Of a DNA stretch of 64,000 bases, positions 17,206 through 33,308 are shown piece after piece. Position 1 is the stretch's first letter. Each line of letters begins with the position of its first letter. The stretch comes from Salinibacterium sp. G-O1 (lineage in GTDB: Bacteria > Actinomycetota > Actinomycetes > Actinomycetales > Microbacteriaceae): NCBI RefSeq assembly GCF_030063305.1, contig NZ_JASISV010000002.1, positions 558,001 to 622,000 on the forward strand, given 5' to 3'. The notes beneath the pieces were generated by a model. The model was not told the DNA's origin and made no database searches. It saw nothing but the letters and a program-made list of their open reading frames with translations. Made by a program: the position numbers and the translations under genes.

Positions 17206-17309
17206 CCCCTTCGGAAATTCAGGAAATCAGCAGCGCTCCGAGATGTGTCGCCCGCGTGTGCTGCGGAATCGGCGGATGCCACACCGGATTTCCTGAATTT
17301 CCGAAGGGG
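17206..17309. repeat. REPIN-like inverted-repeat element, copy A
   Basis: Perfect 23-bp inverted repeats (CCCCTTCGGAAATTCAGGAA plus ATC at 17206-17228; complement at 17287-17309) enclose 58 bases. Measured from TCGG to CCGA the unit is 94 bp (17211-17304), the same as copies B and C. It lies between dgt and dnaG, both on the minus strand. Transcribed RNA would form a long stem. The ends are shared with three other copies; the interior is not. Confidence 0.85.
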
Positions 17310-17386
17310 GGTGGAAGAGGACGGGGTGGCGGGGTGGCGGAGGTGGCCGCGCGGGCTGCGAGGGCGCCGCGTGCGGCCGCGGAAGG

Positions 17387-18625
17387 TCAGCCGACGAGGC
17401 GAGCGTGCCAGACCATGGCCGACTGGTCAGTCAGCGACGCCACCTGGTCGACGACAGCCCGCTTGCGCTGCGTGTCTGACTGCGCCTGGTGCCAGTCGGC
17501 CGTGAATCCGGCGTCGAGGTTGGTCGGCGCCGTCCACAACAGCACGTCGGCAAGTTCCGACAGGATGTCACGCTGCTGGGCGTAGATCGGACGGCGGGCA
17601 TTCGTCGACATCACAAAAGCCGCCACGATGCCCTTCAGTACCGCGATCTCGGCCTGAATCTCGCGCGGAACAACGAGGTCGGCCCCGAAACGGGCGAGAC
17701 TTCCGGAGTGCGACTCCCTCGTGGCGTGCACCGCGGCTCCGGCAAAACGTCCGATGAGCTGGCTCGTCAGGTTCTTCAGCCGACCGTGGGCCTGTCGGCT
17801 TCCGTCCCACCGGTCGATCCAGACGTCGAGGTTGTCCAGCCGGTCGAACGCGGCGATGAGCTCGTCGTGGTCGACCTCTCCCCCGATCCACGCGAACATC
17901 GAGTTGACGAGTTCGTCGTGGTCGACGCGCGCGCCGAGGGCCGTGACATCCACATAGCCGTTGACGATCGCATCCTCGAAATCGTGCACCGAGTAGCCGA
18001 TGTCGTCGGAGAGATCCATGACCTGCGCCTCGATGCAGCGCTGGCGGTCGGGAGCGTCGGCGCGCAGCCACTCGAACGCGGCGGTGTCGTCGTCGTAGAA
18101 CCCGTACTTGCTGCGGCCGCTGGGATCCGGAATGCCCTGGGCGCTCGGCCACGGGTACTTGCAGCTCGCGTCGAGCGTCGCTCGCGTCAGGTTGAGCCCG
18201 TACGACTCCCCATCCGGCCCGAAAACCTTCGGTTCGATGCGGGTGAGCAGGCGGAGCGTCTGCGCGTTGCCCTCGAAGCCGCCGATGTCGGCCGCCCAGT
18301 CGTTGAGGGCGCGCTCGCCGTTATGGCCGAAGGGCGGATGCCCCAGGTCGTGAGCCAGACACGCCGTGTCGACAACGTCGGGGTCGAGTCCGAGGCTGTC
18401 TGCCAGCTCGCGCCCAACCTGCGCAACCTCGAGGGAGTGGGTCAGCCTGTTTCGCGCGAAGTCGAGCGCGGTCGTCGGGCTGAGCACCTGCGTCTTCGCC
18501 GCGAGTCTGCGCAGCGCGCTCGAGTGCAGCACCCGCGCTCGATCTCGCGCAAAGTCGCTGCGGCGGCTGTAATGCTCTTCGGGAAACCAGCGCTCGGCAT
18601 CGACGGCCGAGTAGTCGTCAACCAC
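17387..18625 (-). CDS. dgt: Deoxyguanosinetriphosphate triphosphohydrolase-like protein
   Basis: The 412-residue HD-domain enzyme of the dGTPase family hydrolyses dNTPs to nucleosides and triphosphate. The first metal-binding His is in RNRLTHSLEVAQ, and the core HD motif is CLAHDLGHPPFGHNGE; later family motifs include MDLSDDIGYSVHDFEDA. The GTG start overlaps the dusB stop by 8 nt, so the two are translationally coupled. The region after the stop contains repeat element copy A before dnaG. Confidence 0.93.
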   Translation of the reverse strand: MVDDYSAVDAERWFPEEHYSRRSDFARDRARVLHSSALRRLAAKTQVLSPTTALDFARNRLTHSLEVAQVGRELADSLGLDPDVVDTACLAHDLGHPPFGHNGERALNDWAADIGGFEGNAQTLRLLTRIEPKVFGPDGESYGLNLTRATLDASCKYPWPSAQGIPDPSGRSKYGFYDDDTAAFEWLRADAPDRQRCIEAQVMDLSDDIGYSVHDFEDAIVNGYVDVTALGARVDHDELVNSMFAWIGGEVDHDELIAAFDRLDNLDVWIDRWDGSRQAHGRLKNLTSQLIGRFAGAAVHATRESHSGSLARFGADLVVPREIQAEIAVLKGIVAAFVMSTNARRPIYAQQRDILSELADVLLWTAPTNLDAGFTADWHQAQSDTQRKRAVVDQVASLTDQSAMVWHARLVG

Positions 18626-19796
18626 CGCTGGTGTTCAGTTCGGCTGCGGCAAGCTCAACGCGGTGCGTCTCCTGCAGTTCGCGGCTGTCGAGCCACCCCT
18701 GCGGCAGGCTGGGGCTCTTGGGGGTGCCGGCACGGCCACGCTGGCCTTCGGCGTCGGCGCCCGGGTACGGCTGATCCCAGTCGAGCTGGGCGAGAAGCTC
18801 GTCGAGCTGCGCGAGATCCTGCACCGTCGCGAGTGAGGCGCGAAGCTCTCCACCGACCGCGTATCCCTTGAAATACCAGGCGACATGCTTGCGGATGTCG
18901 CGGCAGGCGCGGTCCTCCTCCTCGAAGAACTCGGTCAGCAGTTCGGCGTGCCGCCTGAACGCCCGCGCAACCTCGCCGAGACCCGGCTCAGCCTTGAGCT
19001 GCTCGCCGCGGAACGCTGCGGCGAGGTCACCGAACAGCCACGGCCGTCCGAGGCATCCACGGCCGACGACGACTCCGTCGCAGCCCGTCTCGTCGACCAT
19101 TCGCAGGGCATCCTGTGCGCTCCAGATGTCGCCGTTGCCGAGGATCGGCGTGCCGGTGATGGTGTTTTTGAGCTTCTCGATGGCCGACCAGTCTGCGGTT
19201 CCCGAGTAGAACTCGGCCGCGGTTCTGGCGTGAAGCGCGATGCTGGCGACGCCAGCGCCCTCCGCCGCCTTCGCTGCCTCGAGGTAGGTCAGGTGGTCTG
19301 AGTCGATGCCTTTACGCATCTTGATGGTGAGCGGAACGGCGCCGGCAGCCTTCACCGCGCCCTCCACAATGTTGCGGAACAGGTCGCGCTTCCACGGCAG
19401 CGCAGCGCCGCCGCCCTTGCGGGTGACCTTCGGCACGGGGCATCCAAAATTCAGGTCGATGTGGTCTGCACGATCTTCGGCGACCAGCATCGTGACCGCC
19501 TCGGCGACGGTCTTCGGGTCGACGCCGTAGAGCTGGATGCTGCGCGTGGTCTCAGACTCGTGGTGCCGAATCAGCCGCATGCTTTCGGGGGTTCGCTCGA
19601 CCAGCGCGCGGCTGGTGATCATCTCGCTGACGTAGAGCCCTGCGCCGTATTCGCGGCACAGGCGCCGGAACGCGGTGTTCGTGATGCCCGCCATCGGCGC
19701 GAGCACGACCGGCACGTCGAGCGCGATCGGCCCGATCTTGAGCGCGGGCGTCGACGCTGGTGCCGCAGCAACGCGCGGGTCAGCAACAATGGTCAT
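18618..19796 (-). CDS. dusB: tRNA-dihydrouridine synthase (DusB type)
   Basis: This 392-residue FMN enzyme reduces uridine to dihydrouridine in the tRNA D loop. Seen: TIM-barrel start VLAPMAGITNTAFRRLCREY, catalytic Cys in NFGCPVPKVTRKGGGAAL, and the FMN-binding segment GNGDIWSAQDALRM..GVVVGRGCLGRPW. ATG 19796 is chosen because GGGAG lies nine bases upstream; a longer frame reaching 19994 would run antisense through the YbaK gene. Coupled to dgt by an 8-nt overlap. Confidence 0.94.
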   Translation of the reverse strand: MTIVADPRVAAAPASTPALKIGPIALDVPVVLAPMAGITNTAFRRLCREYGAGLYVSEMITSRALVERTPESMRLIRHHESETTRSIQLYGVDPKTVAEAVTMLVAEDRADHIDLNFGCPVPKVTRKGGGAALPWKRDLFRNIVEGAVKAAGAVPLTIKMRKGIDSDHLTYLEAAKAAEGAGVASIALHARTAAEFYSGTADWSAIEKLKNTITGTPILGNGDIWSAQDALRMVDETGCDGVVVGRGCLGRPWLFGDLAAAFRGEQLKAEPGLGEVARAFRRHAELLTEFFEEEDRACRDIRKHVAWYFKGYAVGGELRASLATVQDLAQLDELLAQLDWDQPYPGADAEGQRGRAGTPKSPSLPQGWLDSRELQETHRVELAAAELNTSGG

Positions 19797-19832
19797 GTGG
19801 CAATTCTCCCAGAGATTTCGGACGAGCTCGGC

Positions 19833-20315
19833 ATGGTCCACGCTGGCACCCAGCGAATGCTGCAGGATGCCGCCAGCCGAGGCATCCCCATCGAGGTCGT
19901 TTCGCACCCCGAAGCCGGCTCGCTGGCCGAGGCCGCGGCGCTGCTCGGCGTCTCCCCCCGCGAGGTGGTGAAGTCGCTCGTCGTGAAGCGCCACGACGGC
20001 GCCTTCCTGTTCGCGTTGGTGCCGGGCGACCGCCAGCTCTCATGGCCGAAGCTGCGTGCGGTCGTCGGCGTCAACAAGTTGAAGCTGTCGACCCCAGAAC
20101 TTGCGCTGGAGGCAACGGGGTTCGAGCGCGGCACCATCACACCGCTGGGCAGCACCACCGCCTGGCCGGTGTTCGTGGATGCGCGGATCACAGCTCAGCG
20201 GATCGCCATGGGCTCCGGCGCTCATGGGACGAGCGCGTGGGTCTCGACCGAGCAGCTGATCTCGGGTTTCGACGCGACAGTGGCCGACATCACCACAGAA
20301 CTGGCGGCGGACTAG
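19833..20315 (+). CDS. YbaK/EbsC-family aminoacyl-tRNA deacylase
   Basis: A protein of about 160 residues with the YbaK fold: substrate-loop Lys in REVVKSLVVKRHDG, then FLFALVPGDRQLSW and the GxxxP-type segment ITPLG. Members deacylate mischarged tRNAs such as Cys-tRNA(Pro). ATG 19833 fits family N-termini; an in-frame GTG at 19797 would abut the first base of the opposite dusB start. No clear ribosome binding site precedes either. The TAG stop overlaps the GTG start of the next gene (TAGTG). Confidence 0.85.
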   Translation: MVHAGTQRMLQDAASRGIPIEVVSHPEAGSLAEAAALLGVSPREVVKSLVVKRHDGAFLFALVPGDRQLSWPKLRAVVGVNKLKLSTPELALEATGFERGTITPLGSTTAWPVFVDARITAQRIAMGSGAHGTSAWVSTEQLISGFDATVADITTELAAD

Positions 20316-20755
20316 TGGCCCTCGACGATCATCCGAACGTCTTCCGGTTTGACGGCCGCATCTGGGTCAGCACAGCTCCTCGCGAGGACGCCGTTGCGCA
20401 ACTCCGCGCGCAACGGGCCTGGGATGCCCAGAACGCCAAACTCCAGCGCTGGTGGGTGGCCATCGCGATCGGCGCAGCCGGTGGCGTCGCGGCGACGCTC
20501 ATGTTCGGCTCCGCGGCGGAACTCGCGCCCGCGGTCTACCTGCTGCTTCTACCCATCGGATTCGGCGTCGGGGCGGTGCTCGGCGCCCTGCTGAACAAGC
20601 GCTTCAACGCACCGGACGCGCAGCACTCATCGCTGCCGCCGCGGCCCGCGACCGTTCCCCTCACCCAGGTGCCTCCCCGGGTCGCTCGTGCCGCACCGGC
20701 TGACGCGGGTGTGACCGACCTCATCGAGTGGTCGAAGCGGGGCTTCGTCAGCTAG
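20315..20755 (+). CDS. Small membrane protein, unknown function
   Basis: The 146-residue protein begins at a GTG overlapping the upstream YbaK stop. It has a polar N-terminal region with FRFDGRIWVSTAPRE, a charged helix ending NAKLQRWW, two transmembrane helices (WWVAIAIGAAGGVAATLMFG and VYLLLLPIGFGVGAVLGALL), and a basic, Pro-rich cytoplasmic tail ending DLIEWSKRGFVS. No catalytic motif is recognised. Tandem coupling with the deacylase suggests shared expression only. Confidence 0.75.
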   Translation: MALDDHPNVFRFDGRIWVSTAPREDAVAQLRAQRAWDAQNAKLQRWWVAIAIGAAGGVAATLMFGSAAELAPAVYLLLLPIGFGVGAVLGALLNKRFNAPDAQHSSLPPRPATVPLTQVPPRVARAAPADAGVTDLIEWSKRGFVS

Positions 20756-20892
20756 ACGTTGTCGTCGTCGAGCCGACGATTCACGATGGCCTGCGTGTGG
20801 TGCTCGGGGACAGCACAGAAGTCGCCATCACAGGATGCAGCGCTCGGGTCACCCAACGGGGTCAACCCGATGATGGGCAGGGAGTTCGTCAT
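20752..20892 (-). CDS. Short Cys-containing protein (46 aa)
   Basis: An open frame codes for 46 residues starting MTNSLPIIGLTPLGD, followed by SAASCDGDFCAVPEHH and a basic/acidic tail. ATG 20892 lies 8 bases after the stop of the FrnE-like oxidoreductase, so they would share one mRNA. Two Cys four residues apart (CDGDFC) followed by PEHH could be a thiol pair or a metal site. Its stop overlaps the convergent membrane-protein stop by two bases. Supported by position, spacing and composition; homologues were not checked. Confidence 0.55.
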   Translation of the reverse strand: MTNSLPIIGLTPLGDPSAASCDGDFCAVPEHHTQAIVNRRLDDDNV

Positions 20893-20900
20893 GGCATCCA

Positions 20901-21560
20901 CTATTCACTCTTTTCGATTGACCGCTCGGTCTGTACCTGTGTGAGCACGTTAGCGAAAGTAGCAGCATCCTGCGCGCCGGACACCCCGTAGGTGCCGTCG
21001 ATCACGAAGAACGGCACGCCCTGAATGCCGTATTCCTGGGCGAGCGCCACGTCGGCCTTCACATCGGCGAGGAACCTGTGGCTCTCCAACGCCTCCGTGA
21101 CCTCGGCGGCATCGAAGCCCAGCTCCTCGGCGATCGCGACGAGATTCGGGATGCGCCCGACGTGCTCGCCGCGCACGAAGTACGCGTCGAGCAGCCGCTC
21201 CTTCATCTCGATCTGGCGACCCTTGCTCTTGGCGAAGTGAAGCAGCTCGTGGCTGATGATGGTGTTCGTCTGGTGGACGTGGTCGTAGTCGTAGTCCAGC
21301 CCGACGCTCTTGGCAATGTCCGTGACATTCGCGAGCATTTGGGTGACCTGCTCGGCGGGAATGCCCTTGCGCTGGCTGAGGTAGTCGGTGGGCGTGCCGT
21401 CGAAGTCGACCGGAGTGTCTGGAGCGAGTTCGAAGGAGTGGTACTCCACCTCGACCTCACCGCCGAACTGGGCAGCGCCCGCCTCGAACTTTCGCTTGCC
21501 GATGTAGCACCAGGGGCACTGCACGTCTGACCAGATATCGACCTTAATGGGATTACTCAC
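20901..21560 (-). CDS. DsbA-family (FrnE-like) thiol oxidoreductase
   Basis: This 219-residue protein has a thioredoxin fold with a helical insert. The active site CPWC is in VDIWSDVQCPWCYIGKRKFE and the cis-Pro segment is QGVPFFVIDG. The family includes cytosolic FrnE, linked to oxidative stress and polyketide maturation; no signal peptide is present. GTG 21560 gives the usual short lead before the first strand; in-frame GTGs at 21569 and 21581 are alternatives with no better ribosome binding site. A 46-residue Cys-containing gene follows 8 bases downstream. Confidence 0.88.
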   Translation of the reverse strand: MSNPIKVDIWSDVQCPWCYIGKRKFEAGAAQFGGEVEVEYHSFELAPDTPVDFDGTPTDYLSQRKGIPAEQVTQMLANVTDIAKSVGLDYDYDHVHQTNTIISHELLHFAKSKGRQIEMKERLLDAYFVRGEHVGRIPNLVAIAEELGFDAAEVTEALESHRFLADVKADVALAQEYGIQGVPFFVIDGTYGVSGAQDAATFANVLTQVQTERSIEKSE

Positions 21561-21697
21561 CCCCAGCACAACGACCTGCACCTTCAGGTATTCCCGCGCC
21601 GATGGGAGATGTCCTCATTAATGCCTATTGCCACCCGAACGGGGGTAGGGGCATGCTCAGAAGATCGAAACCCTTTCGAGACTTGAGGAGTTCTTCC

Positions 21698-22549
21698 ATG
21701 AGAAAACGAACAATCGCCGCCGCTATCCTGCTGGCGACACTGTCAGGACTGGCGCTCGGCACACCCGCCGTGGCCAGCACCGGCGGAACCGAAGACGGAA
21801 ATCTGCACCCGGATGTCGGGCTCATCCTGTTCTACGACGCCGACGGGCGTTTCCGCTGTTCAGCGACATTGGTGTCGCCGACCGTGGTGCTCACCGCCGC
21901 GCACTGCACCCAGGGCACTGTGGGCAAGACGCTCGTCACCTTCGACACGGTAATCGCAAGGACTCCCCCGTCGCTGTTCCCGGTCGCCGCAGATCCGTCC
22001 GTGGGATTCACGCAGGCCGAGATCGAGGCTGCCGGCTACCTGTCGGGTACGGCGTACACGCATCCGGACTACTCGAACTTCACCGACATGAACAACTGGA
22101 ATGACGTTGGGCTCATCCAACTTGACCACCCCGTTGCGTCGTTTGGTGGCGGATACCCGGCAATTGCACCCGTTGGCACCCTGAGCGCGATCAAGACGAG
22201 CAACTTGTCGAAGACGCTCTTCACCGCGGTCGGCTACGGCACCGAGGTGCGCAAGCCCGACTCGGGACCGCAGAAGCCTCAGCCGATGAGCTACCCGCTG
22301 CTGCGGCGCTACGTGGACATGCCCGGTCAGAAGCTGACCCCGCAGATCCTGCAGACCAACGGAAACCCTAATGACAATAAGGGAACCGGCGGCACCTGCT
22401 TCGGTGACTCGGGTGGTCCGGTCTTCCTCGACGGCAAACTGGTCGCGGTGACCAGCTACGGCTACACCAGCAACTGCCGCTATCTTGGTGGCTACCAGCG
22501 GGTCGACATCCCCGTGGTCGCCAACTGGCTGTCAGGCTTCGGGCTCTGA
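21698..22549 (+). CDS. Secreted trypsin-like serine protease
   Basis: The 283-residue protein starts with a Sec signal peptide (MRKRTIAAAILLATLSGLAL..VAS). A chymotrypsin-fold domain follows: catalytic His in VLTAAHC, Asp in DVGLIQLD and Ser in CFGDSGGPVF. ATG 21698 is chosen over upstream ATGs because GAGGAG lies eight bases before it and it gives a canonical signal peptide. Cys pairs near His and Ser suggest disulphides. Likely an extracellular protease active soon after export, as no obvious pro-region is seen. It reads away from the FrnE-like gene. Confidence 0.92.
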   Translation: MRKRTIAAAILLATLSGLALGTPAVASTGGTEDGNLHPDVGLILFYDADGRFRCSATLVSPTVVLTAAHCTQGTVGKTLVTFDTVIARTPPSLFPVAADPSVGFTQAEIEAAGYLSGTAYTHPDYSNFTDMNNWNDVGLIQLDHPVASFGGGYPAIAPVGTLSAIKTSNLSKTLFTAVGYGTEVRKPDSGPQKPQPMSYPLLRRYVDMPGQKLTPQILQTNGNPNDNKGTGGTCFGDSGGPVFLDGKLVAVTSYGYTSNCRYLGGYQRVDIPVVANWLSGFGL

Positions 22550-22550
22550 T

Positions 22551-23687
22551 TCAGTGAGTGGCGGGCCGTTCGCGGCCCGCCACTTCGCTGTGCCCGCTGG
22601 CGCCGCCCCCGCTCCCGCCGCCTCCGCCGCCTCTGCCGCCGCCCTTCCCGCTGCCGCCGCCTCCGCCGCCGCCGCCGCGGCCGCCGCCCCCGCTCCCGCC
22701 GCCTCCGCCGCCTCTGCCGCCGCCCTTCATTCTCGGAAATTCAGGAAATCTCGACCGGGCCGCGTGCGCTCTCCCGCCATTACTGTCCTTAGCCCCAAGG
22801 CGCGTCGCCGTTTCCTGAATTTCCGAAGTGGGCGGAGCGTGCGACGCCAGTGCGACGTCGACCGCCCGGAGGAAATGGGCCCAGTTGCCAAAAATCATCT
22901 TCGCGCTCACGCTCATTGCGTGAAATCCCGCGATCGTCATGTCGACGCATTTAAGTCGGTCCTCCTCAAACGTGTCTGCGTGAAATTTTTTGCCGTCGAT
23001 CTCAATCCCCATGATGTCGTCAACGACCAAGTCGATTCGCTGGGTTCCCAGAGCTACCTGAATCTCTACCGTGTGACCCGCCAGCCTGAGCCTCGTGCGA
23101 GCGAGGCTCTCCGGCAGGCTCTCGCACCTGCCGTCCACCCAGGATCTGATCCACCGCTTGCGTCGCGGCAAATTCAGGATCAGCCGTTCGAAGTCGAATT
23201 CGTCGAGCCGCCCGGTGTGCAGCGCCCAGTCGATCGCAGCAACGGCCGTCTCAAGATCCTCATCCATGACCACTCGCACCAACGCCTCGATCAGGCCGAC
23301 GTGCGACGCACTTCCTTGCTCGCCGATGATCAGCGAGTCCCAGTGGAGTCGCACGCCGCGACGGACTCCGAGCGGCCGCCGTCTGTTCCATTGGCTGCGC
23401 AGTCGCGCGGCATTCTGCGGAATGGAGACGTGCAATGGATGCTCGCCCAACACCCATCCGCCCCACTCGCGAATGGCGGAGATCCCCGTCAGGCGCCCAC
23501 CAACCCGCACGGCCCTCACCCGCGCGTCCGCGTAGTCCAACGTGGTGTACCAACCCTGCCTGGCGCGAATCACCGTCCCGTCTCGCACAGCGTTGGTCAG
23601 GTCGACGTCTCGCGCTCCCCGCGCGACAAGTTGCCGTTTTTGCGCGAATCCGCCCAGCTCATGGACCACTCTCGAGATATCCACCAT
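22551..23687 (-). CDS. AbiEi-antitoxin-domain / DUF559-like protein with repeat-derived Gly-rich tail
   Basis: The 378-residue product has an N-terminal winged-helix AbiEi-like region (GGFAQKRQLVARGARDVDLT..RQGWY) and a C-terminal DUF559/Vsr-like nuclease-fold region with D..GIEIDGKKFHADTFEEDR, where Asp and Glu-x-Asp resemble a PD-(D/E)XK site. DNA binding or cleavage is inferred. Residues from about 288 to the end are encoded by repeat element copy B and a GCC tract and read as a Gly/Ser/Arg-rich tail unlike the family, so the original stop was probably lost. ATG 23687 precedes MVDISRVV. No partner toxin gene is adjacent. Confidence 0.75.
   Translation of the reverse strand: MVDISRVVHELGGFAQKRQLVARGARDVDLTNAVRDGTVIRARQGWYTTLDYADARVRAVRVGGRLTGISAIREWGGWVLGEHPLHVSIPQNAARLRSQWNRRRPLGVRRGVRLHWDSLIIGEQGSASHVGLIEALVRVVMDEDLETAVAAIDWALHTGRLDEFDFERLILNLPRRKRWIRSWVDGRCESLPESLARTRLRLAGHTVEIQVALGTQRIDLVVDDIMGIEIDGKKFHADTFEEDRLKCVDMTIAGFHAMSVSAKMIFGNWAHFLRAVDVALASHAPPTSEIQETATRLGAKDSNGGRAHAARSRFPEFPRMKGGGRGGGGGGSGGGGRGGGGGGGGSGKGGGRGGGGGGSGGGASGHSEVAGRERPATH
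22557..22584 (+). terminator. Terminator-like hairpin after the protease gene
   Basis: A perfect 12-bp stem (AGTGGCGGGCCG/CGGCCCGCCACT) with a TTCG loop begins 7 bases after the protease stop. No T-run follows, so efficiency is uncertain. It lies inside the last codons of the opposite-strand gene, which supports that gene having been extended into former intergenic DNA. Confidence 0.6.
22601..22728. repeat. GCC-type tract with an 81-bp-period direct repeat
   Basis: A trinucleotide-rich tract contains two identical 47-bp segments (22601-22647 and 22682-22728), offset by 81 bp, a multiple of three. It encodes the Gly/Ser/Arg-rich end of the minus-strand gene and abuts repeat element copy B. 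The pattern fits replication slippage. Confidence 0.85.
22733..22826. repeat. REPIN-like inverted-repeat element, copy B
   Basis: Perfect 16-bp inverted ends (TCGGAAATTCAGGAAA at 22733-22748; complement at 22811-22826) enclose 62 bases; total 94 bp. The element is read through in frame by the minus-strand AbiEi/DUF559-like gene. Confidence 0.85.
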
Positions 23688-23780
23688 GCGCAGAGCATCG
23701 CGAAGTGCGCCCTCGGCCGGGACGCGTGCGGCCCAATCGGTGGACTCTCGGCGCGCGCAGCCCGTGTGGAGTAGCTGTCT

Positions 23781-23880
23781 CCTTCGGAAATTCAGGAAAC
23801 GGCGCGCGGACGACCGCAGAGTCCCCGCCACGAGTGGAGGACACCGCTCAGCGCGACCGGATCTCCTGAATTTCCGAAGG
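23781..23880. repeat. REPIN-like inverted-repeat element, copy C
   Basis: Inverted ends CCTTCGGAAATTCAGGA (23781-23797) and its complement (23864-23880) match over 17 bp. Measured from TCGG to CCGA the unit is again 94 bp (23784-23877). It fills most of the gap between the glyS stop and the start of the AbiEi/DUF559-like gene. Confidence 0.85.
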
Positions 23881-23932
23881 CGGTGGGGGCTGGAAAGGCG
23901 GCCTGCGGCAGCCGCCGCAGCGGCCCGGGCCG

Positions 23933-25318: not shown

Positions 25319-25417
25319 GGTGTGTCTCCTTCGGTGCGTCCATTGTCGCGGCGCGCACCATCAGTCAGCCGAGCTGGATGCCCGGTCGGCGAAGTGTCCA
25401 GCCTACCGGCAGCGCCG

Positions 25418-26461: not shown

Positions 26462-26528
26462 ACCCAAGCATCCCGCTCCCACCCACAGGCGGCAAGAGCC
26501 GCATCGGCGACTGCGGACCGGGCGCTGC

Positions 26529-27587
26529 CTAGGCCGACACCGCTGCGGACAGGTGGTGTGCGCGCTCGATGATGCGCACCACAGCGAGGGCGTCCTTCGG
26601 GTCGACCGGTGAGGGCGCTCCATCGAGGATGCTGGCGGCGACTCCCGCGTAGAACTCCGGGTACGCGCCATCCTCGGTGCGCACCGGCGTGAGCTCCTCG
26701 CCGACTCCGACCAGACCCCACCCGGCCTTCGGGGTGAGGCCGTAGCCCTTGGATCCGGGCCATTGCTGCTGCTTCAGCATCGGCTCCTGGTTGTCGAGCC
26801 CGTTCACCGAGTACGCCGACTCAGAGCCGAGCACCCTAAAGCGTGGGCCGATCTGGCCGGCAACACGGCTCATGGTGAGGTGTGAGCGCACGCCGCTGTC
26901 GTGCAGCAGCGAGATGAACGCGTCGTCGTCGCTGACTCCCCCGTCGCGCACGACGGTGAGTTCGGCGGTGTCAACGGTGGCCGGTCCGAACAGCTGCAGG
27001 GCCTGGTCGATGAGGTGGCTGCCCAGGTCGTAGGTGATGCCCGCGCCCTGCTCGGCCGTGGTGGAGTCCTGCCAGCGGTCGCGCAGCGCGCCTCCCCAGC
27101 GTTCGAAGGTGGACTCGAAGCGGTGGATGTCACCAAGCGCACCCTCGGCGAGCAACTTCTTGATCGTCAGGAAGTCACCATCCCAGCGGCGGTTCTGGAA
27201 CACGGCAAGCAGCTTGCCGGCATCCTCTGACGCCTCGATGAGTTGCTTGGCGTCGGTGACGGTCGGCACGAACGGCTTGTCGATGACGACGTGCAGGCCG
27301 GCCTCGAAGGCGGCGAGACCTTGGGCGAGGTGCACGTGCGCTGGCGAGGCGAGGATGACCAGGTCGAGGTCGGCGGCGCGCGCGAGCAGCTCTTCCGGGC
27401 TGCCGACGATCTCGGCGCCCGGGTGCTGGGCCGCGGCCTCTGCCGCGCGTTCCGGGCTTCCCGTGGAGATCAGGTCGAGGCTGAACGCGGGGTTCGTGGC
27501 GATGAAGGGCGCATGGAACACCCGGCCCGAGAGGCCGAAGCCAATGATTCCGGTGCGGATAGGGGATGACTTCTGCGTTGAGGGCAT
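26529..27587 (-). CDS. Gfo/Idh/MocA-family oxidoreductase
   Basis: The 352-residue NAD(P)-dependent oxidoreductase has a Rossmann domain (GIIGFGLSGRVFHAPFI), the DKP variant of the usual EKP motif (HVVIDKPFVPT) and the catalytic-region His in YDLGSHLIDQAL. Substrates of this family are sugars, inositols and related polyols; the specific one cannot be named. It begins 13 bases after the stop of the IscS-like gene and is probably transcribed with the NAD operon. Confidence 0.9.
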   Translation of the reverse strand: MPSTQKSSPIRTGIIGFGLSGRVFHAPFIATNPAFSLDLISTGSPERAAEAAAQHPGAEIVGSPEELLARAADLDLVILASPAHVHLAQGLAAFEAGLHVVIDKPFVPTVTDAKQLIEASEDAGKLLAVFQNRRWDGDFLTIKKLLAEGALGDIHRFESTFERWGGALRDRWQDSTTAEQGAGITYDLGSHLIDQALQLFGPATVDTAELTVVRDGGVSDDDAFISLLHDSGVRSHLTMSRVAGQIGPRFRVLGSESAYSVNGLDNQEPMLKQQQWPGSKGYGLTPKAGWGLVGVGEELTPVRTEDGAYPEFYAGVAASILDGAPSPVDPKDALAVVRIIERAHHLSAAVSA

Positions 27588-27600
27588 TCGGCCAGCCTAG

Positions 27601-28764
27601 CTAAGGTGCGGCTGTCGCGGTGGTGGTGGATGCGCCCAGTGCGTGCACCGTCTGCGAGGCGTCGACGAGGTGACGCACAACCTGCTGCAACTGCTCGGCG
27701 GTGATCGTGGCATCCATGCTGAAACGCACGGCGGTCTGGGCGACTTCGGGCTCGATGCCCATCGCGACGAGCACGTGCGAGGGCTCGTCGCTGCCCACGG
27801 CGCAGGCGGATCCGGCCGAGCACACCACCCCGCGCTGGCCGAGCTCGAGCAGGATGGATTCGCCGCTCGTTCCCGGGAAGCAGAACGACGCATTCGACGG
27901 CAGCCGGGGCTCCGTCGGCCCGGTGAGCGTCGCGCCGGGCACTGCGCTCACCACGTCGGCGATGAAGGTATCCCGCAGCGCCGTCACGCGGTCGGCGTGG
28001 TCGACCCGCGCGAGTTCGCTGAGACGCACGGCCGTGGCGAGCCCGACGGCGCCGGCCACGTTCTCGGTTCCGGACCGCCTGCCGCGCTCCTGACCGCCGC
28101 CGTGCACGAGCGGTTCCAGCGGGATCCTGCGCCGCAGGTAGAGCGCACCGATGCCTTTGGGCGCCCCGAGCTTGTGCCCGGAGACGCTGATCGCGTCAGC
28201 TCCGAGGTCTTTCAGGTCGATCCAGCCGGCCGCCTGCACGGCATCGGTGTGCATCACGGCCCCAACGGCATGCGCGAGCTCCGCGATCGCGCGGATCGGC
28301 TGCACCGCGCCCACCTCGTTGTTGGTCAGGATGATGCTCACGAGCGTCGTGTCGGGGCGCAGCAGCTTCGCCACCTCGTCCGGGTCGACGAGCCCGTGCC
28401 GGTCGACGCCGACAATGCTGATCTCAAAACCGTGGATGCGACGCAGGTAGTCGCACGATTCCAGCACGGCCTCGTGCTCGACCGCGGAGGTCACGATGTG
28501 CCGGCCGCGCGGGTTGGCCAGCGCGATTCCCTTCACCGCGAGGTTGTCGGATTCGGTGCCGCCGGCCGTGAAGATGACCTCGGAAGGACGAGCCCCGAAC
28601 AGCGCGGCGACGGTGGCCCTGGCATCCGCCAGTGCGAGCGCCGCCGACTCCCCCAGCTCGTGGTGGCTCGACGGGTTGCCGAACGAGCCCGTGAGGTACG
28701 GCCACATGGCCTCGAGCACCTCGCCGCGCACCGCGCTCGTCGCTGCGGCATCCAGATAGATCAT
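27601..28764 (-). CDS. Cysteine desulfurase (IscS/NifS type) of the NAD operon
   Basis: The 387-residue PLP enzyme has YLDAAATSAV at the N-terminus, the TGGTESDN-like segment FTAGGTESDNLA, PLP Lys in SVSGHKLGAPKG and active-site Cys in GVVCSAGSACAVG. Placed after nadC with an ATGA overlap, it may supply sulfur for the [4Fe-4S] cluster of NadA, as proposed for NifS-like genes in other nad operons. ATG 28764 is used; the frame extends further upstream but antisense-like into nadC. Confidence 0.92.
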   Translation of the reverse strand: MIYLDAAATSAVRGEVLEAMWPYLTGSFGNPSSHHELGESAALALADARATVAALFGARPSEVIFTAGGTESDNLAVKGIALANPRGRHIVTSAVEHEAVLESCDYLRRIHGFEISIVGVDRHGLVDPDEVAKLLRPDTTLVSIILTNNEVGAVQPIRAIAELAHAVGAVMHTDAVQAAGWIDLKDLGADAISVSGHKLGAPKGIGALYLRRRIPLEPLVHGGGQERGRRSGTENVAGAVGLATAVRLSELARVDHADRVTALRDTFIADVVSAVPGATLTGPTEPRLPSNASFCFPGTSGESILLELGQRGVVCSAGSACAVGSDEPSHVLVAMGIEPEVAQTAVRFSMDATITAEQLQQVVRHLVDASQTVHALGASTTTATAAP

Positions 28765-29609
28765 GAGATGGCCATGTCGAGCCCCAGGTCGAGGGCGCGC
28801 ACGCTGTGGGTGAGCGCTCCGACCGAGATGATGCCGACGCCACAGCGTGCGATCTCGCCGACGGTGTCGAGGTTCACGCCGCCGCTGGCCTCGACGAGGC
28901 AACGACCGGCGACGATCGCGACGCCCTCGCGCAGCTGCGCCGGCGAGAAGTTGTCGAGCATGATCGTGTTGACTCCGGCCGCCACGACGGGCTCGATCTG
29001 GTCGATGCGATCGACCTCCACCTCGATGTGGGTGGTGTGTCCGAGCCTGAGGCGGGCGTCGCGGATGGCGTCGCCGATCGGGATGCCCGCCCGCTGCAGC
29101 ACCGCGAGGTGGTTGTCTTTGGCGAGCACGGCATCCGAGAGGGAGTAGCGGTGGTTGTGGGCGCCGCCGTCGCGCACGGCCTGGCGTTCGAGCATCCGGA
29201 GCCCCGGTGTGGTCTTGCGGGTGTCGACGATGCGCGCCGAGGTGCCGGCCACGGCCTGCACGTAGCGTGCGGTCATCGTGGCGATGCCCGACATGCGCTG
29301 GCTGAGGTTGAGGGCGATGCGCTCAGCGCGCAGCATGGCGCGGGCGTTCCCGTCGACCGTGGCGAGCACGTCGCCGACGGCGAAGGCCGCGCCATCCTCC
29401 ACGAAGAGTTCGACCTTGGCGTCGGCATCCACAAGCGCGAAGACCCGCGCAAACACGTGGATGCCGCTCATCACGCCCGCCTCGCGGGCGACCAGGCTCG
29501 ACTGCGCGCGTGCGGTCGCGGGCAGGAAGGTCTCCGAGGTGATGTCGCCCCAGGGGGCATCCTCGGCGAGAGCGCGGCGGATGATGTCGTCAACGGCATC
29601 GGAGTTCAC
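28761..29609 (-). CDS. nadC: Nicotinate-nucleotide pyrophosphorylase (carboxylating)
   Basis: The 282-residue enzyme converts quinolinate and PRPP to nicotinate mononucleotide in de novo NAD synthesis. Family segments: ALNLSQRMSGIAT, VDTRKTTPGLR, DNHLAVLQRAG, MLDNFSPAQL and EASGGVNLDTV. Overlaps nadB and the IscS-like gene by 4 nt on each side, so translation of the set is coupled. Confidence 0.96.
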   Translation of the reverse strand: MNSDAVDDIIRRALAEDAPWGDITSETFLPATARAQSSLVAREAGVMSGIHVFARVFALVDADAKVELFVEDGAAFAVGDVLATVDGNARAMLRAERIALNLSQRMSGIATMTARYVQAVAGTSARIVDTRKTTPGLRMLERQAVRDGGAHNHRYSLSDAVLAKDNHLAVLQRAGIPIGDAIRDARLRLGHTTHIEVEVDRIDQIEPVVAAGVNTIMLDNFSPAQLREGVAIVAGRCLVEASGGVNLDTVGEIARCGVGIISVGALTHSVRALDLGLDMAIS

Positions 29610-31144
29610 AGGGTCGCCTCTTCTTTTACACGTAAGGATGCCGGCACGACGCAGTCGAATGATTGCGCGAACAGTGCGGAGCTTTCGGGAAAATCGGTGC
29701 GCCAGTGGGCGCCCCTCGACTCCTCACGGCACAGGGCTGCGGTCACCGTCAGCCGGGCGAGGTCGAGCAGGTTGCGGGTTTCGAGGTCGCTGACGGAATC
29801 GCCGACGACCGTCCACTCTTCGAGCTGGGCCGCGGCGGCACGAAGCCCCGCGGCGGAACGTTCGATGCCGACGAGATCCCACATCAGTCGCTGCACCTGA
29901 GCGCGATCCACCGGAACGTCGCCCGCGGCAGCAGCGCCCAGCGTGGTCGCCGTCGAGGCGAACTGCGGCCACGCGTCGGTGAGCACATCCGTGGCGCGCC
30001 AGGCGAAGGCGAGAGACTCGAGCAGCGAATTGGATGCGAGCCTGTTTGCGCCGTGAACGCCCGTGCACGCGACCTCGCCGACCGCGAACAGCCCGCGCAG
30101 CGAGGTGCGGCCGTGCGCGTCTGTGCGGATTCCGCCCATCCAGTAGTGCGCCGCGGGCGTCACGGGGATCGGTGTGGTCGCCCAGTCGAAACCGTGGGCG
30201 GCGCATGACCGGTCGATGCCCGGGAAGCGCTGCTCGAGGTAGTCGCGGCCGAGAGCCGTGGCATCCAGCAGCACGGGCCGACCGCCCTGCGCAGCCATCG
30301 CGTTGGCGATGCCGCGGGCGACGACGTCTCGCGGGGCGAGCTCGCCATCCGGGTGCACGTCGAACATGAACCGGCGTCCGTGCTCGTCGAGCAGCACGGC
30401 GCCCTCTCCGCGCACGGCCTCGGAGATCAGCGGGGTGCCGGCGACGGCGAGGGCCGTGGGGTGGAACTGGTAGAACTCCAGGTCGGCGAGCACCACGCCT
30501 GCCCTGAGGGCTGCGGCCGTGCCGTCACCGGTGGCCACTAGCGGGTTCGTGGTGTGGGTGTAGAGCTGACCGGCGCCGCCGCTGGCCAGGATCACGATGT
30601 CGGCGTCGATCACGCGCACGACACCGGCGGTGTCGACGACCTCGATGCCGCTCACGCGACGGTCGGGCCCGCTGTCATCGATCACCAGATCGCGCATGAA
30701 GGTGTGCTCGTGCACCTCGAGCGCGAGGGTGCGCACGGCCGCGACGAGGGCGGTCTCGATGGCGAGCCCGGTCGCGTCGCCGCCAGCGTGGATCACGCGG
30801 CGGGCCGAGTGGGCGGCCTCGTGGCCCCGCTCCAGCTCCCCGTTGATGCGGTCGAACTCCACGCCGAGCGCGATCAGGTCGCGAACCCGGCCGGGACCTT
30901 CCGTGCACAGCACGTCGACAGTCGCCGGGTCACACAGCCCGTCGCCGGCGCGCACGGTGTCTGCCGCGTGGGCCTCGGCGCTGTCATCCGGAAACAACGC
31001 AGCCGCAATGCCGCCCTGCGCGTATTTCGTGTTGCTTTCGCCCAGGTCGGCCTTGGTCACCAGCACGACGTCATGCTCAGCGCTGGCCCGGTACGCGGCA
31101 ATCAGCCCCGCGATCCCGGTGCCGACGACGACGACGCGTGCCAT
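29606..31144 (-). CDS. nadB: L-aspartate oxidase
   Basis: The 512-residue flavoenzyme oxidises aspartate to iminoaspartate, the substrate of NadA. FAD-binding motif VVVGTGIAGLIAAYRAS is at the N-terminus; KYAQGGIAAAL and the catalytic region HPDGELAPRDVVARGIA match the succinate dehydrogenase/aspartate oxidase family; the C-terminal helical domain is shorter than in fumarate reductases. Its ATG shares one base with the nadA stop (TGATG). Confidence 0.95.
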   Translation of the reverse strand: MARVVVVGTGIAGLIAAYRASAEHDVVLVTKADLGESNTKYAQGGIAAALFPDDSAEAHAADTVRAGDGLCDPATVDVLCTEGPGRVRDLIALGVEFDRINGELERGHEAAHSARRVIHAGGDATGLAIETALVAAVRTLALEVHEHTFMRDLVIDDSGPDRRVSGIEVVDTAGVVRVIDADIVILASGGAGQLYTHTTNPLVATGDGTAAALRAGVVLADLEFYQFHPTALAVAGTPLISEAVRGEGAVLLDEHGRRFMFDVHPDGELAPRDVVARGIANAMAAQGGRPVLLDATALGRDYLEQRFPGIDRSCAAHGFDWATTPIPVTPAAHYWMGGIRTDAHGRTSLRGLFAVGEVACTGVHGANRLASNSLLESLAFAWRATDVLTDAWPQFASTATTLGAAAAGDVPVDRAQVQRLMWDLVGIERSAAGLRAAAAQLEEWTVVGDSVSDLETRNLLDLARLTVTAALCREESRGAHWRTDFPESSALFAQSFDCVVPASLRVKEEATL

Positions 31145-32421
31145 CAGACCGTCTCCTGCGCCGGGATCGGCTTAGCGGCGAGCATGCGCTCGAGCGCGAC
31201 GCGGGCGTCGGCCGCGACATCCATTGGCACAGTGATCTGGTTGATGACTTCGCCGCGCACGAGCCCCTCCAGCACCCAGGCGAGGTAGCCGGGGTGGATG
31301 CGGTACATGGTGGAGCACGGGCAGATCACCGGGTCGAGGCAGAAGATCTTGTGCTGCGGAAACTCAGCTGCGAGCCGGTTGACCATGTTGATCTCGGTGC
31401 CGATCGCGAAGGTGGTGGGCTCGGTCGCGGCCGCCACCGCCTTACGGATGTAGTCGGTAGACCCTGCCTCGTCTGCGGCGTCGACGACGGCCATCGGGCA
31501 TTCGGGATGCACGATCACGCGCACCCCCGGATGCTCCACCCTGGCCGCGTCGATCTGGGCGACGTTGAAGCGCTTGTGCACGCTGCAGAAGCCGTGCCAG
31601 AGGATGACCTTCGCGTCGAGCACCTCGGCCTCGGCGTTGCCGCCGAGCGGCTTGTGCGGGTTCCACATCGGCATCAGTTCGAGCGGGATGCCCATCGCCT
31701 TCGCCGTGTTGCGACCGAGGTGCTGGTCGGGGAAGAACAGCACGCGCTGGCCGCGCTCGAACGCCCACTCCAGCACCGTTGCGGCGTTGGAGCTGGTGCA
31801 CACGATGCCACCGTTGCGACCGCAGAATGCCTTCAGCGCGGCAGACGAGTTCATGTAGGTGACCGGGATGACCGGAACCCTGCCCGCGGAATCGGGCTGG
31901 GTGCCGTACAGCTCGGTGAGCTGCTCCCAGCACTCCTCCACGGAGTCGATGTCGGCCATGTCGGCCATCGAGCACCCGGCGGCGAGGTTCGGCAGGATGA
32001 CGGCCTGGCCCGGACGCGCGAGGATGTCTGCCGTCTCGGCCATGAAGTGCACACCGCAGAACACGATCGCCTCGGCATCCGGAACGGTCTGGGCGGCATT
32101 GGCGAGTTGGAACGAGTCCCCGAGGAAGTCGGCGTGCTGCACGACCTCGTCGCGCTGGTAGAAGTGACCCAGGATCACGGCACGGTCGCCGAGCACCTCT
32201 TTCGCCGCACGGATTCGATCGTGCAGCTCGGCGTTGGAGGCATCCTGATACTCGGTGGGCAGCTGGCCCTGGCGCGGCGACCCTGTCGGGATCACGTCGC
32301 CCATCGACGATCCGGGGCCGTAGCCGGGGGTGCCGAGGTCGAAGGTCCAGGGGCCGTCGGCCAGCTCGGGCGCACAGCTTTCGCCGGGCGCGGTCTGGAT
32401 GAGTGCATCAACTGATGACAC
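31144..32421 (-). CDS. nadA: Quinolinate synthase
   Basis: This 425-residue [4Fe-4S] enzyme condenses iminoaspartate with DHAP to form quinolinate. Cluster ligands are likely the Cys in VFCGVHF, IVCTSSNA and DPVICPCSTM. ILGHFYQRDEVVQ and HPECPMAVVDAAD are family segments. GTG 32421 is chosen since AGGGAG sits just upstream; an ATG at 32442 is in frame without a site. Either start lies inside the 3' end of nrtR, giving coupling to the regulator. Confidence 0.95.
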   Translation of the reverse strand: MSSVDALIQTAPGESCAPELADGPWTFDLGTPGYGPGSSMGDVIPTGSPRQGQLPTEYQDASNAELHDRIRAAKEVLGDRAVILGHFYQRDEVVQHADFLGDSFQLANAAQTVPDAEAIVFCGVHFMAETADILARPGQAVILPNLAAGCSMADMADIDSVEECWEQLTELYGTQPDSAGRVPVIPVTYMNSSAALKAFCGRNGGIVCTSSNAATVLEWAFERGQRVLFFPDQHLGRNTAKAMGIPLELMPMWNPHKPLGGNAEAEVLDAKVILWHGFCSVHKRFNVAQIDAARVEHPGVRVIVHPECPMAVVDAADEAGSTDYIRKAVAAATEPTTFAIGTEINMVNRLAAEFPQHKIFCLDPVICPCSTMYRIHPGYLAWVLEGLVRGEVINQITVPMDVAADARVALERMLAAKPIPAQETV

Positions 32422-33121
32422 GGGTACTCCCTGTTTTCTCATGACTGAGCGGGCCGTTGTCGACGAGCTCGGTGTTGGCGTTGTAGCGGTAGAGCCGCGG
32501 CGGGCGGTGCCTGCCACCGCTGACGACGGCATCGGTGGGCTGAAGCGAGCCCTCGACCTGCCGGCGGAAGTTGGCGGGGTCCAGCGGCTTGCGCAGGATC
32601 GCCTCGTGCACGTTGCGCAGCTCGGTGAGCGTGAAGGTCTCACCCAGCAGCGCGTGAGCGATGCGGCTGTACTCGACCTTGGTGCGCAGCCGCCACAGCG
32701 CGTACTCGATGATGACGTTGTGATCGAAGGCCAGCTCCGGCAGGTGGTCGGCGGGGAACCAGCGCACGTTGTCGCCGTCGGTGGCCTGCTCCGCCTGGTC
32801 GGCCCGCACGAGTGCCCAGTACACGATCGACACGACGCGGCTGGAGGTGGAGCGCTCGACGTCCCCGAAGGCGTACAGCTGCTCGAGGTAGCTGGGCTGC
32901 ACTCCGGTGGTCTCGAGCAGGTTGCGTGCCGCGGCATCCGCGAGGCTCTCGGGCTCGGTCACCCAGCCGCCCGGCAGCGCCCAGCGGTCGAGGAACGGCT
33001 CTTTGATGCGGCGCACCAGCGGGATCCACACCGCGCTCAGCCCGGTGTCTGGGTGCTCGCGCAGGGCGAAGATCACGGTGGATACGGCGAGTTGGATGCC
33101 GTCGCGCGGTGAGTCTGCCAT
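32408..33121 (-). CDS. nrtR: NrtR-type Nudix-related transcriptional regulator
   Basis: The 237-residue protein has an N-terminal Nudix-like domain and a C-terminal winged helix (residues about 150-225, LTELRNVHEAILRKPLDPAN). The Nudix box is degenerate: RN where the catalytic RE is expected, and ET for EE, which fits a ligand-sensing, non-hydrolytic protein. NrtR proteins repress NAD synthesis genes and release DNA on binding ADP-ribose or related ligands. As first gene of nrtR-nadABC-iscS, with palindromes directly upstream, autoregulation is likely. GGAAG precedes ATG 33121. Confidence 0.9.
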   Translation of the reverse strand: MADSPRDGIQLAVSTVIFALREHPDTGLSAVWIPLVRRIKEPFLDRWALPGGWVTEPESLADAAARNLLETTGVQPSYLEQLYAFGDVERSTSSRVVSIVYWALVRADQAEQATDGDNVRWFPADHLPELAFDHNVIIEYALWRLRTKVEYSRIAHALLGETFTLTELRNVHEAILRKPLDPANFRRQVEGSLQPTDAVVSGGRHRPPRLYRYNANTELVDNGPLSHEKTGSTRVIS

Positions 33122-33139
33122 GGGGCTTCCGATCAGTAA

Positions 33140-33177
33140 AGGTCACTATGACCTGAAGAGAGTGTAACACTTCAGGT
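33140..33177 (-). promoter_or_regulatory. Nested palindromes upstream of nrtR (candidate NrtR operator)
   Basis: Three overlapping inverted repeats occur 19 to 56 bases upstream of the nrtR start: AGGTCA-CTA-TGACCT (33140-33154), ACCTGAAG-N11-CTTCAGGT (33151-33158 and 33170-33177), and AGTGT-A-ACACT (33161-33171) at the centre of the second. Their position before the first gene fits an operator for NrtR; the match to any published NrtR motif was not checked. Confidence 0.5.
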
Positions 33178-33210
33178 CGAACTGACCAAAACGCTCCCGG
33201 CGCCCTCCCC

Positions 33211-33308
33211 CCTTCGGAAATTCAGGAGATGAGCGTCGCGGCGGTGGCACGTGCCGCGCGGCTCCGGTGTTCCGGGTTCGGCGCGCACGCCGTTTCCTGA
33301 ATTTCCAA
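33211..33308. repeat. REPIN-like inverted-repeat element, copy D
   Basis: Inverted ends share the core GGAAATTCAGGA (33216-33227) and its complement (33295-33306). The right outer end has diverged (CCAACGG in place of CCGAAGG). From TCGG to the end of the right core the unit is 95 bp. It lies between the uppS stop and the nrtR operator region. Confidence 0.8.

Follow-up and report, generated by a model that had tools for sequence, protein, structure and literature searches.

What are four short elements with matching inverted ends doing within 16 kb of a chromosome, and is there a gene that could account for them? This question arises from a 64,000-nucleotide stretch of Salinibacterium sp. 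G-O1 (contig NZ_JASISV010000002.1, positions 558,001 to 622,000; hereafter the window), in which four such elements occur and in which a gene encoding an AbiEi-like region fused to a Vsr-type nuclease lies between the second and the third. An earlier note on this DNA had described the copies as REPIN-like, that is, as paired inverted REP sequences of the type moved by a RAYT transposase. Our analysis leads us to think it rather likely that the AbiEi-Vsr gene and its cognate inverted-core pairs form a chromosomal two-part repeat system that is similar to REPIN/RAYT but built on an unrelated enzyme. At the level of sequence, this is supported by the co-occurrence of gene and pairs, the flanking of the gene by pairs, subfamily-specific cores, element lengths in steps of the helical turn, kept cores with diverged interiors, and conserved catalytic residues.

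The four elements belong to a dispersed family of inverted core pairs

The genome from which the window was taken (G000; 3.14 Mb in 6 contigs, 99.95% complete) was analyzed together with comparison genomes, which carry the other G numbers, and with fetched loci, which carry L numbers. All four copies proposed in the note were borne out, with the outer ends of the 14-mer TCGGAAATTCAGGA at positions 17211-17304, 22733-22826, 23784-23877, and 33214-33308 (Table 1), resulting in lengths from outer end to outer end of 94, 94, 94, and 95 bp. The exact 12-mer GGAAATTCAGGA was found 8 times in the window, forming four inverted pairs, and elements with inverted GGAAATTCAGGA core pairs are referred to as family 1. 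The note had also claimed that the core is more frequent than expected by chance, and indeed 11 matches with up to 2 mismatches were present in the window versus 2.44 expected, a number reached by 0 of 100 shuffles. The source genome as a whole holds 31 exact GGAAATTCAGGA cores, 30 of them in 15 inverted pairs, and the reversed-pattern control gave 0. The repeats are thus neither limited to the four copies nor unpaired, the two outcomes that the note had named as speaking against it. The 31st exact core has a mismatched partner inside an open reading frame (ORF) (L051). Exact GGAAATTCAGGA pairs were detected in 9 of 40 genomes (G000 included), all from one genus, and in 0 of 15 genomes of other families.

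The position of the copies, described earlier as gene borders or 3' ends, held for copies 1, 3, and 4, which are located between genes, whereas the open 3' end of the nuclease ORF extends into copy 2. Genome-wide this description applies in part: 11 of 16 elements of G000 overlap no predicted gene and 5 do, as judged with a rough ad hoc gene caller. Two of the gene-overlapping elements sit within mutM and an FGGY kinase gene. Elements in open frame within coding sequence were observed in mutM (L056:1432-2451) and in FGGY kinases (L049:1299-2732 and L206:1922-3310).

Table 1. Paired-core elements and nuclease gene in the window.
Feature	Position	Strand	Description
Paired-core element 1	17206-17309	no strand	94 bp; perfect 23-bp inverted ends CCCCTTCGGAAATTCAGGAAATC; between dgt and dnaG
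Paired-core element 2	22733-22826	no strand	3' side of the nuclease gene; the ORF enters the element without a stop codon
AbiEi-Vsr nuclease gene	22830-23687	-	286 aa up to element 2; based on ORF, profile matches, alignment, and predicted structure
Paired-core element 3	23781-23880	no strand	upstream of the nuclease gene, ~95 bp before the start codon; adjoins glyS
Paired-core element 4	33213-33308	no strand	95 bp between 14-mers; between uppS and a NUDIX/NrtR gene

An AbiEi-Vsr nuclease gene lies between two pairs and co-occurs with them

The earlier statement that the window contains no RAYT-like gene is correct as to RAYT; a partner gene is nevertheless present, namely the AbiEi-Vsr ORF between copies 2 and 3. 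Residues 1-188 of its product are AbiEi-like with an N-terminal winged helix and residues 186-286 have a Vsr/EDxHD nuclease fold (predicted structure, AlphaFold pLDDT 94). Two alignments were made, one of 27 of the 30 homologue loci (L070, L086, and L090 left out) and one of 57 of the 80 named loci plus the window protein (23 omitted, including L139, which has a stop within the translation). Residues E193, D219, and E229 are invariant and H236 and D243 nearly invariant among 58 sequences, and the protein thus combines the AbiEi fold and its N-terminal winged helix with both the fold and the residues of the Vsr/EDxHD catalytic domain. The name of the EDxHD motif is taken from PMC3943268, and its assignment to residues of the window protein is our own. 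Searches of Pfam, NCBIfam, and PADLOC matched AbiEi and DUF559/MTES_1575 and, weakly, longer anti-phage proteins and a homing-endonuclease model; these libraries gave no family name beyond AbiEi and DUF559/MTES_1575. At window positions 22551-22830 the ORF has no stop before element 2 and continues through the element into low-complexity GC-rich sequence, and the frame is also open into the element in the five relatives that were translated. Among the scanned neighbours (glyS, trypsin-like, and DsbA-like) there was no AbiEii nucleotidyltransferase or other partner toxin. Carriage by plasmids or phages was rejected because a tblastn search (E 1e-5) of 72,556 plasmid and 50,697 phage records with the window protein gave no match (distant homologues were not tried).

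Within the genus, the gene and the pairs go together. The same gene, 61-74% identical and likewise located between two pairs, is present in G017, G011, G021, G008, and G016. Some homologue occurs in all 27 genus genomes; 16 of them, including G000, have an orthologue (at least 61% identity) and 11 have only homologues of at most 39% identity. Exact GGAAAYTCAGGA pairs were detected in 14 of the 16 genomes with the orthologue versus 0 of the 11 without it (Fisher p 6e-6, or 2e-7 without G004 and G013), a comparison that covers exact pairs only. In the exceptions, G004 and G013, one pair with a variant GGCAAC-type core lies beside the gene. The orthologue is flanked by pairs on both sides in 13 of 16 genomes and on one side in 3 (G004, G013, and G041), and the 14 genomes that have exact pairs contain between 2 and 15 of them. 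The inner distance between the flanking pairs is 961-964 bp in seven loci (L094-L100) and 961 bp in the window, and this near constancy indicates that pair, gene, and pair behave as one unit. In Salinibacterium, the unit is located between glyS and dsbA, as it is in loci with the titles Glaciihabitans, Rhodoglobus, and Lacisediminihabitans; the titles of the named gene-bearing loci point to Salinibacterium and other genera of the Microbacteriaceae. In other genomes, the place between glyS and dsbA is held by relatives of 33-38% identity (L080, L081, and L119), and in L081 and L119 a different core is found on both sides of the gene.

Distant homologues are often flanked by pairs of their own core

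Seven of 14 distant homologues (at most 39% identity) have inverted pairs on both sides, with other cores. In the flank test applied to the 80 named loci, the best 13-mer occurring as an inverted pair in both flanks was sought and a locus passed with at most 5 total mismatches over the four arms. Of 79 scorable loci 56 passed, corresponding to 18 of 20 close relatives (L094-L113) and 38 of 59 others, versus 0 of 79 mismatched left/right combinations and 0 of 70 windows placed 2.4 kb away. These loci are not independent, as many share a chromosomal site; at one site common to 20 loci, mostly from Microbacterium, many different cores are found. The left and right pairs of the 56 passing loci differ in length by 0-2 bp in 43 loci, 10-12 bp in 9, 22 bp in 3, and 8 bp in one. 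Two of the named loci, L118 and L125 (Lacisediminihabitans changchengi), are on different contigs of one assembly and show no difference over all 12,852 bp, the flanked gene lying mid-stretch; this could be an assembly duplicate or a recent large duplication and looks like the former, and both loci were retained among the 80 named and the 56 passing loci.

A class-wide profile search returned AbiEi-Vsr matches, some of them partial, in 168 of 296 sampled genomes (E <= 1e-10). With windows and spacing limits slightly wider than for the named loci, 16 of 29 class-wide loci passed the flank test (30 were returned and the window's own, L307, was omitted) versus 0 of 87 controls. Passing loci were 8 of 11 from the window's own family and 8 of 18 from outside it, the latter in families f6, f12, f19, f24, f28, and f44. 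The distance between cores correlated with the distance between proteins (Mantel r 0.54 for the winged helix, 0.41 for the middle domain, and 0.30 for the nuclease; 50 of the 56 loci, those with scored arms, phylogeny not partialled out). Among the 32 distant loci alone, the values were 0.34, 0.16, and 0.27, respectively.

Element length follows the helical turn and interiors are mostly unrelated

Lengths between the outer ends of the 12-mers were determined for 75 family 1 elements from 14 genomes. They fall into three bins spaced one helical turn apart, 79-81 bp (18 elements), 89-92 bp (44), and 100-102 bp (13), with none between. The set allows at most 1 mismatch per core and includes one second reading of a G012 element and L051 with its mismatched partner; most elements were fetched by a pattern permitting 76-104 bp, and lengths outside this range were covered solely in G000 and inside fetched loci. 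No other pair spacing was found among the exact cores listed for G000. Such phasing over a variable spacer most likely means that the two cores need to lie on one face of the duplex, with a single protein assembly gripping either end of a loop that is shorter than the persistence length of DNA. Transposition of short IS50 elements is reported to depend on helical phase.

Although total length is fixed, the interiors of ~60 bp are unrelated between the window copies. BLAST comparison of family 1 interiors gave matches in 9 of 2775 pairs (7 cross-species, 1 between neighbouring copies on contig C3, and 1 double reading), and mean pairwise interior scores equal those of shuffles in 6 of 8 genomes, being slightly higher in G016 and inflated by the double reading in G012. 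The idea that family 1 interiors are copies of each other was rejected because scores are not above shuffles, except for near neighbours or copies in other species. The idea that they are DNA captured from elsewhere in the genome was also rejected, because ten joined G000 interiors match themselves and otherwise nothing better than E 0.02. At the start of contig C3 (L058:1-460), three elements of two families lie within 370 bp, and therefore the assembly may have broken at repeats. Outside the elements, the 60 bp to the left are C-rich and those to the right G-rich on the plus strand in 61 of 74 family 1 elements, 38 of 41 family 2 elements, and 11 of 11 elements of a family 3 subset (families 2 and 3 are described below); 205 of 400 random window positions had the same arrangement.

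Cores are kept while interiors and sites change

Four sites are common to G000 and G017 (both gene flanks, uppS-nudix, and mutM), and 111 of 112 core positions are identical at these sites; at the site orthologous to element 4, the 14-mer cores are identical. In contrast, interior alignments do not exceed the best of 50 shuffles at three of the four sites, and at uppS the alignment (44/67) compares with 42 for the best shuffle. In G000, 0 of 12 one-mismatch cores is at pair distance from another exact or one-mismatch core (two-mismatch sites were listed in part).

Occupancy differs between genomes. Across 22 locus rows, the dgt-dnaG gap is either 35-89 bp long without an element (12 rows, representing 10 genomes, two of which are counted twice as L062/L102 and L059/L097) or 199-574 bp long with an element (10 rows, one holding two). 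Within mutM, a loop of variable length that looks permissive contains an in-frame element, 102 bp long in G000 and 81 bp long in G017. Of the 27 genomes, G009 has one lone core in mutM and the remaining 24 show no family 1 core there. This G009 core (L301) is intact and has no partner, in a genome without the orthologous gene; we regard it as a relic or scar. At a third site the element is present in G011, G040, G016, and G010 and absent from G006, G041, and G001, while G018 has other DNA and the site gave no reading for G021, G005, and G012. No clean target-site duplication was found at dgt-dnaG, mutM, or the third site, where the flanks are too diverged between species.

The source genome contains two further families

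Family 2 consists in G000 of 11 pairs with core CTTCCGAAATGACGGAG and a length of 88-90 bp (contigs C1-C4; L239-L248). A family 2 (CTTCC) gene has pairs of that family in its flanks in G017, G008, and G009, whereas single exact cores flank it in G004 and G014. No cognate gene of this family was found in G000, whose third homologue is partial and lacks such pairs. Family 2 interiors score above shuffles, and 22 of 44 contain GCATCC/GGATGC versus 9% of window background 54-mers; the means of this set of 44 are inflated by overlapping readings (L255 and L269) and a near-identical neighbour pair (L248). Family 3 consists in G000 of 20 exact pairs with core AAATGAAGGAGA and a length of 74-76 bp (L237 and L341-L344), and its gene, at C1:635949, is located between two family 3 pairs. 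Its interiors score 2.5 standard deviations above shuffles after near neighbours are dropped. Four sets of neighbouring copies lie 161-475 bp apart and have 33-48 of 51 interior bases in common. Ungapped profiles suggested that near-neighbour copies are discrete jumps, an interpretation that was rejected because, once gaps are allowed, homology reaches 9-62 bp on the left side and 0-33 bp on the right. Between two family 3 copies (L344, ~370-470) there is an extra inverted pair with arms GATAACTCCTGCAG, which resembles the core flanking the L311 gene.

Comparison with known systems

As had been proposed, the layout is REPIN-like: the inverted pairs are dispersed, their ends are conserved around a spacer that is highly diverse, and copies flank a gene. 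The RAYT machinery implied by that proposal was not found: there is no Y1_Tnp/RAYT (PF01797) match in G000 at E <= 0.001, and the same search gave matches in 5 of 14 control genomes. REPIN/RAYT systems (REPtrons) likewise comprise a short conserved repeat that is dispersed in the form of inverted pairs, whose spacer is highly diverse, and a gene that is inherited vertically in a single copy and often has these repeats in its flanks (PMC3116915, PMC8049555, PMC3733652). However, the enzyme is a HUH/Y1 tyrosine transposase there and AbiEi-Vsr here, and GTAG is absent from the family 1 core and from the flanking cores read here. In addition, pair length is quantised here by the helical turn, which points to looping of double-stranded DNA, and the 2-15 exact family 1 pairs per genome compare with hundreds of doublets in P. 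fluorescens SBW25 (PMC3116915). The system lacks the enzyme that defines REPIN/RAYT, and its flanked gene belongs to another superfamily; it is therefore not a member.

AbiE type IV toxin-antitoxin systems differ in other respects. AbiEi is fused here to a nuclease, with no AbiEii toxin among the scanned neighbours, and cores of 12-17 bp, spaced 55-78 bp apart, occur at dispersed sites as well as on either side of the gene, whereas the 23-bp repeats of AbiE are 3 or 13 bp apart in the promoter. Unlike other EDxHD/Vsr nucleases (I-Bth0305I, Vsr, DUF559, and MTES_1575 REase), the gene is free-standing at a fixed chromosomal site in the genus, has dispersed cognate pairs, and, to the extent that the window reveals it, is not part of an intron or intein. 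In the accessible portion of the literature searched (most subscription papers were outside its scope), we found no description of AbiEi or DUF559 genes with flanking repeats, nor of REPINs in actinobacteria/Microbacteriaceae. We see a fair chance that this is a separate class of enzyme-repeat system.

Alternative explanations

The main rival assumes that the pairs are immobile and under purifying selection, as looping operators or chromosome-organising sites of the AbiEi-like protein. The upstream pair would then repress the gene, and the dispersed pairs would act like the sites of a nucleoid or domain-marking protein. Known AbiEi proteins autoregulate via inverted repeats (PMC7319586). The unrelated interiors fit this explanation, as do the identity of cores at four orthologous sites whose interiors have diverged and the exactness of the 30 paired cores of G000, where no one-mismatch pairs were seen. 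Helical phasing counts for it too, being a hallmark of looping operators. However, copy number and sites vary between species (2-15 exact pairs; dgt-dnaG occupied or empty), a second pair immediately following the gene, like the pairs within mutM and the kinase gene, would be odd for operators, and the nuclease residues are conserved across 58 sequences. Immobility thus accounts for the kept cores equally well and for the changing sites less well, and we consider it unlikely. The exactness of the cores would also be explained if the gene were a solitary defence or toxin-antitoxin-like nuclease, the paired cores being protected or decoy sites that restrain it and mutated sites being selected against. 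AbiEi and Vsr/MTES_1575 domains do occur in conflict systems (PMC3710099), and PADLOC gave weak AbiEi matches; but the scanned neighbours include no partner toxin, the tblastn search with the window protein gave no plasmid or phage match, and helical phasing of the pairs is not explained by itself. This makes such a role improbable.

Three further alternatives were considered. Short elements with terminal inverted repeats could be ordinary miniature inverted-repeat transposable elements (MITEs) moved by a conventional insertion-sequence transposase encoded elsewhere, the AbiEi-Vsr gene being a passenger. Yet class-wide homologues tend to be flanked by pairs of their own core, and family 1 copies are alike in their ends and not in their interiors and have phased lengths; no target duplication was seen at the three sites compared, where the flanks are too diverged between species. 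Moreover, no related conventional transposase was identified, exact cores having been checked for insertion sequences only within fetched flanks, and we regard MITEs as very improbable. The same holds for RNA-level structures, either terminators or mRNA hairpins. Most copies lie between genes, and single strands of the four window copies, folded with DNA parameters, fold better than shuffles (z -4.0 to -6.8); the ViennaRNA folds, however, mainly confirm the inverted arms, and these core arms are all that the copies have in common. Spacing steps of 11 bp are not expected for RNA, the arms are not followed by a T tract in any of the window's four copies, some copies lie inside ORFs, and window positions 14000-36000 gave no Rfam match. 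Least credible of all is a genuine REPIN/RAYT system, which would have the same layout, with conserved inverted ends, a highly diverse spacer, and a single-copy vertically inherited gene (PMC8049555, PMC3116915), but is contradicted by the lack of a Y1_Tnp match in G000, the Vsr-type nuclease fold of the flanked gene, and cores without the GTAG tag.

A proposed model for the AbiEi-Vsr gene and its pairs

AbiEi binds inverted repeats and bends DNA (PMC7319586), and I-Bth0305I, an EDxHD enzyme, forms a dimer on its target, which is nearly 60 bp long (PMC3943268). Since the window protein combines AbiEi-type DNA binding with a nuclease domain, a synaptic complex is the simplest reading of the two-part system that we favour. 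In such a complex, the winged helices of two protomers would each read one core and meet on the same DNA face, and the 55-78 bp between the cores would be looped out, bringing the two nuclease domains together as in end synapsis. Less securely, nicking or cutting in the synaptic complex followed by repair may occasionally seed new pairs elsewhere, and the small population of pairs would persist vertically with the gene. Cutting and the spread of pairs by repair are suggested by the parallel with REPIN/RAYT, and the system may also benefit its host. By analogy with AbiEi proteins, the upstream pair probably also autoregulates the nuclease gene. We further propose, tentatively and with more doubt than confidence, that AbiEi-Vsr proteins constitute a separate class of repeat-mobilising enzymes spread through actinobacteria. 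They would synapse inverted cores across a phased loop, cut the DNA, and copy little more than its ends, allowing new pairs to arise around any interior sequence, and their specificity would be evolving rapidly and in concert at the sites of a genome.

Implications

Where the flanking rule holds, each gene has its own DNA code beside it, four times in its flanks, providing many natural protein-site pairs from which winged-helix specificity could be read out. If the two-part system is as we propose, the mode of existence known from REPIN/RAYT has more than one origin, a Vsr-type nuclease here taking the place of the HUH enzyme, and the persistence of repeat populations would become testable in a second, independent system. 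Should AbiEi-Vsr proteins indeed be a separate enzyme class, they would define a further type of bacterial DNA-repeat population alongside insertion sequences and MITEs on the one hand and REPIN/RAYT on the other.

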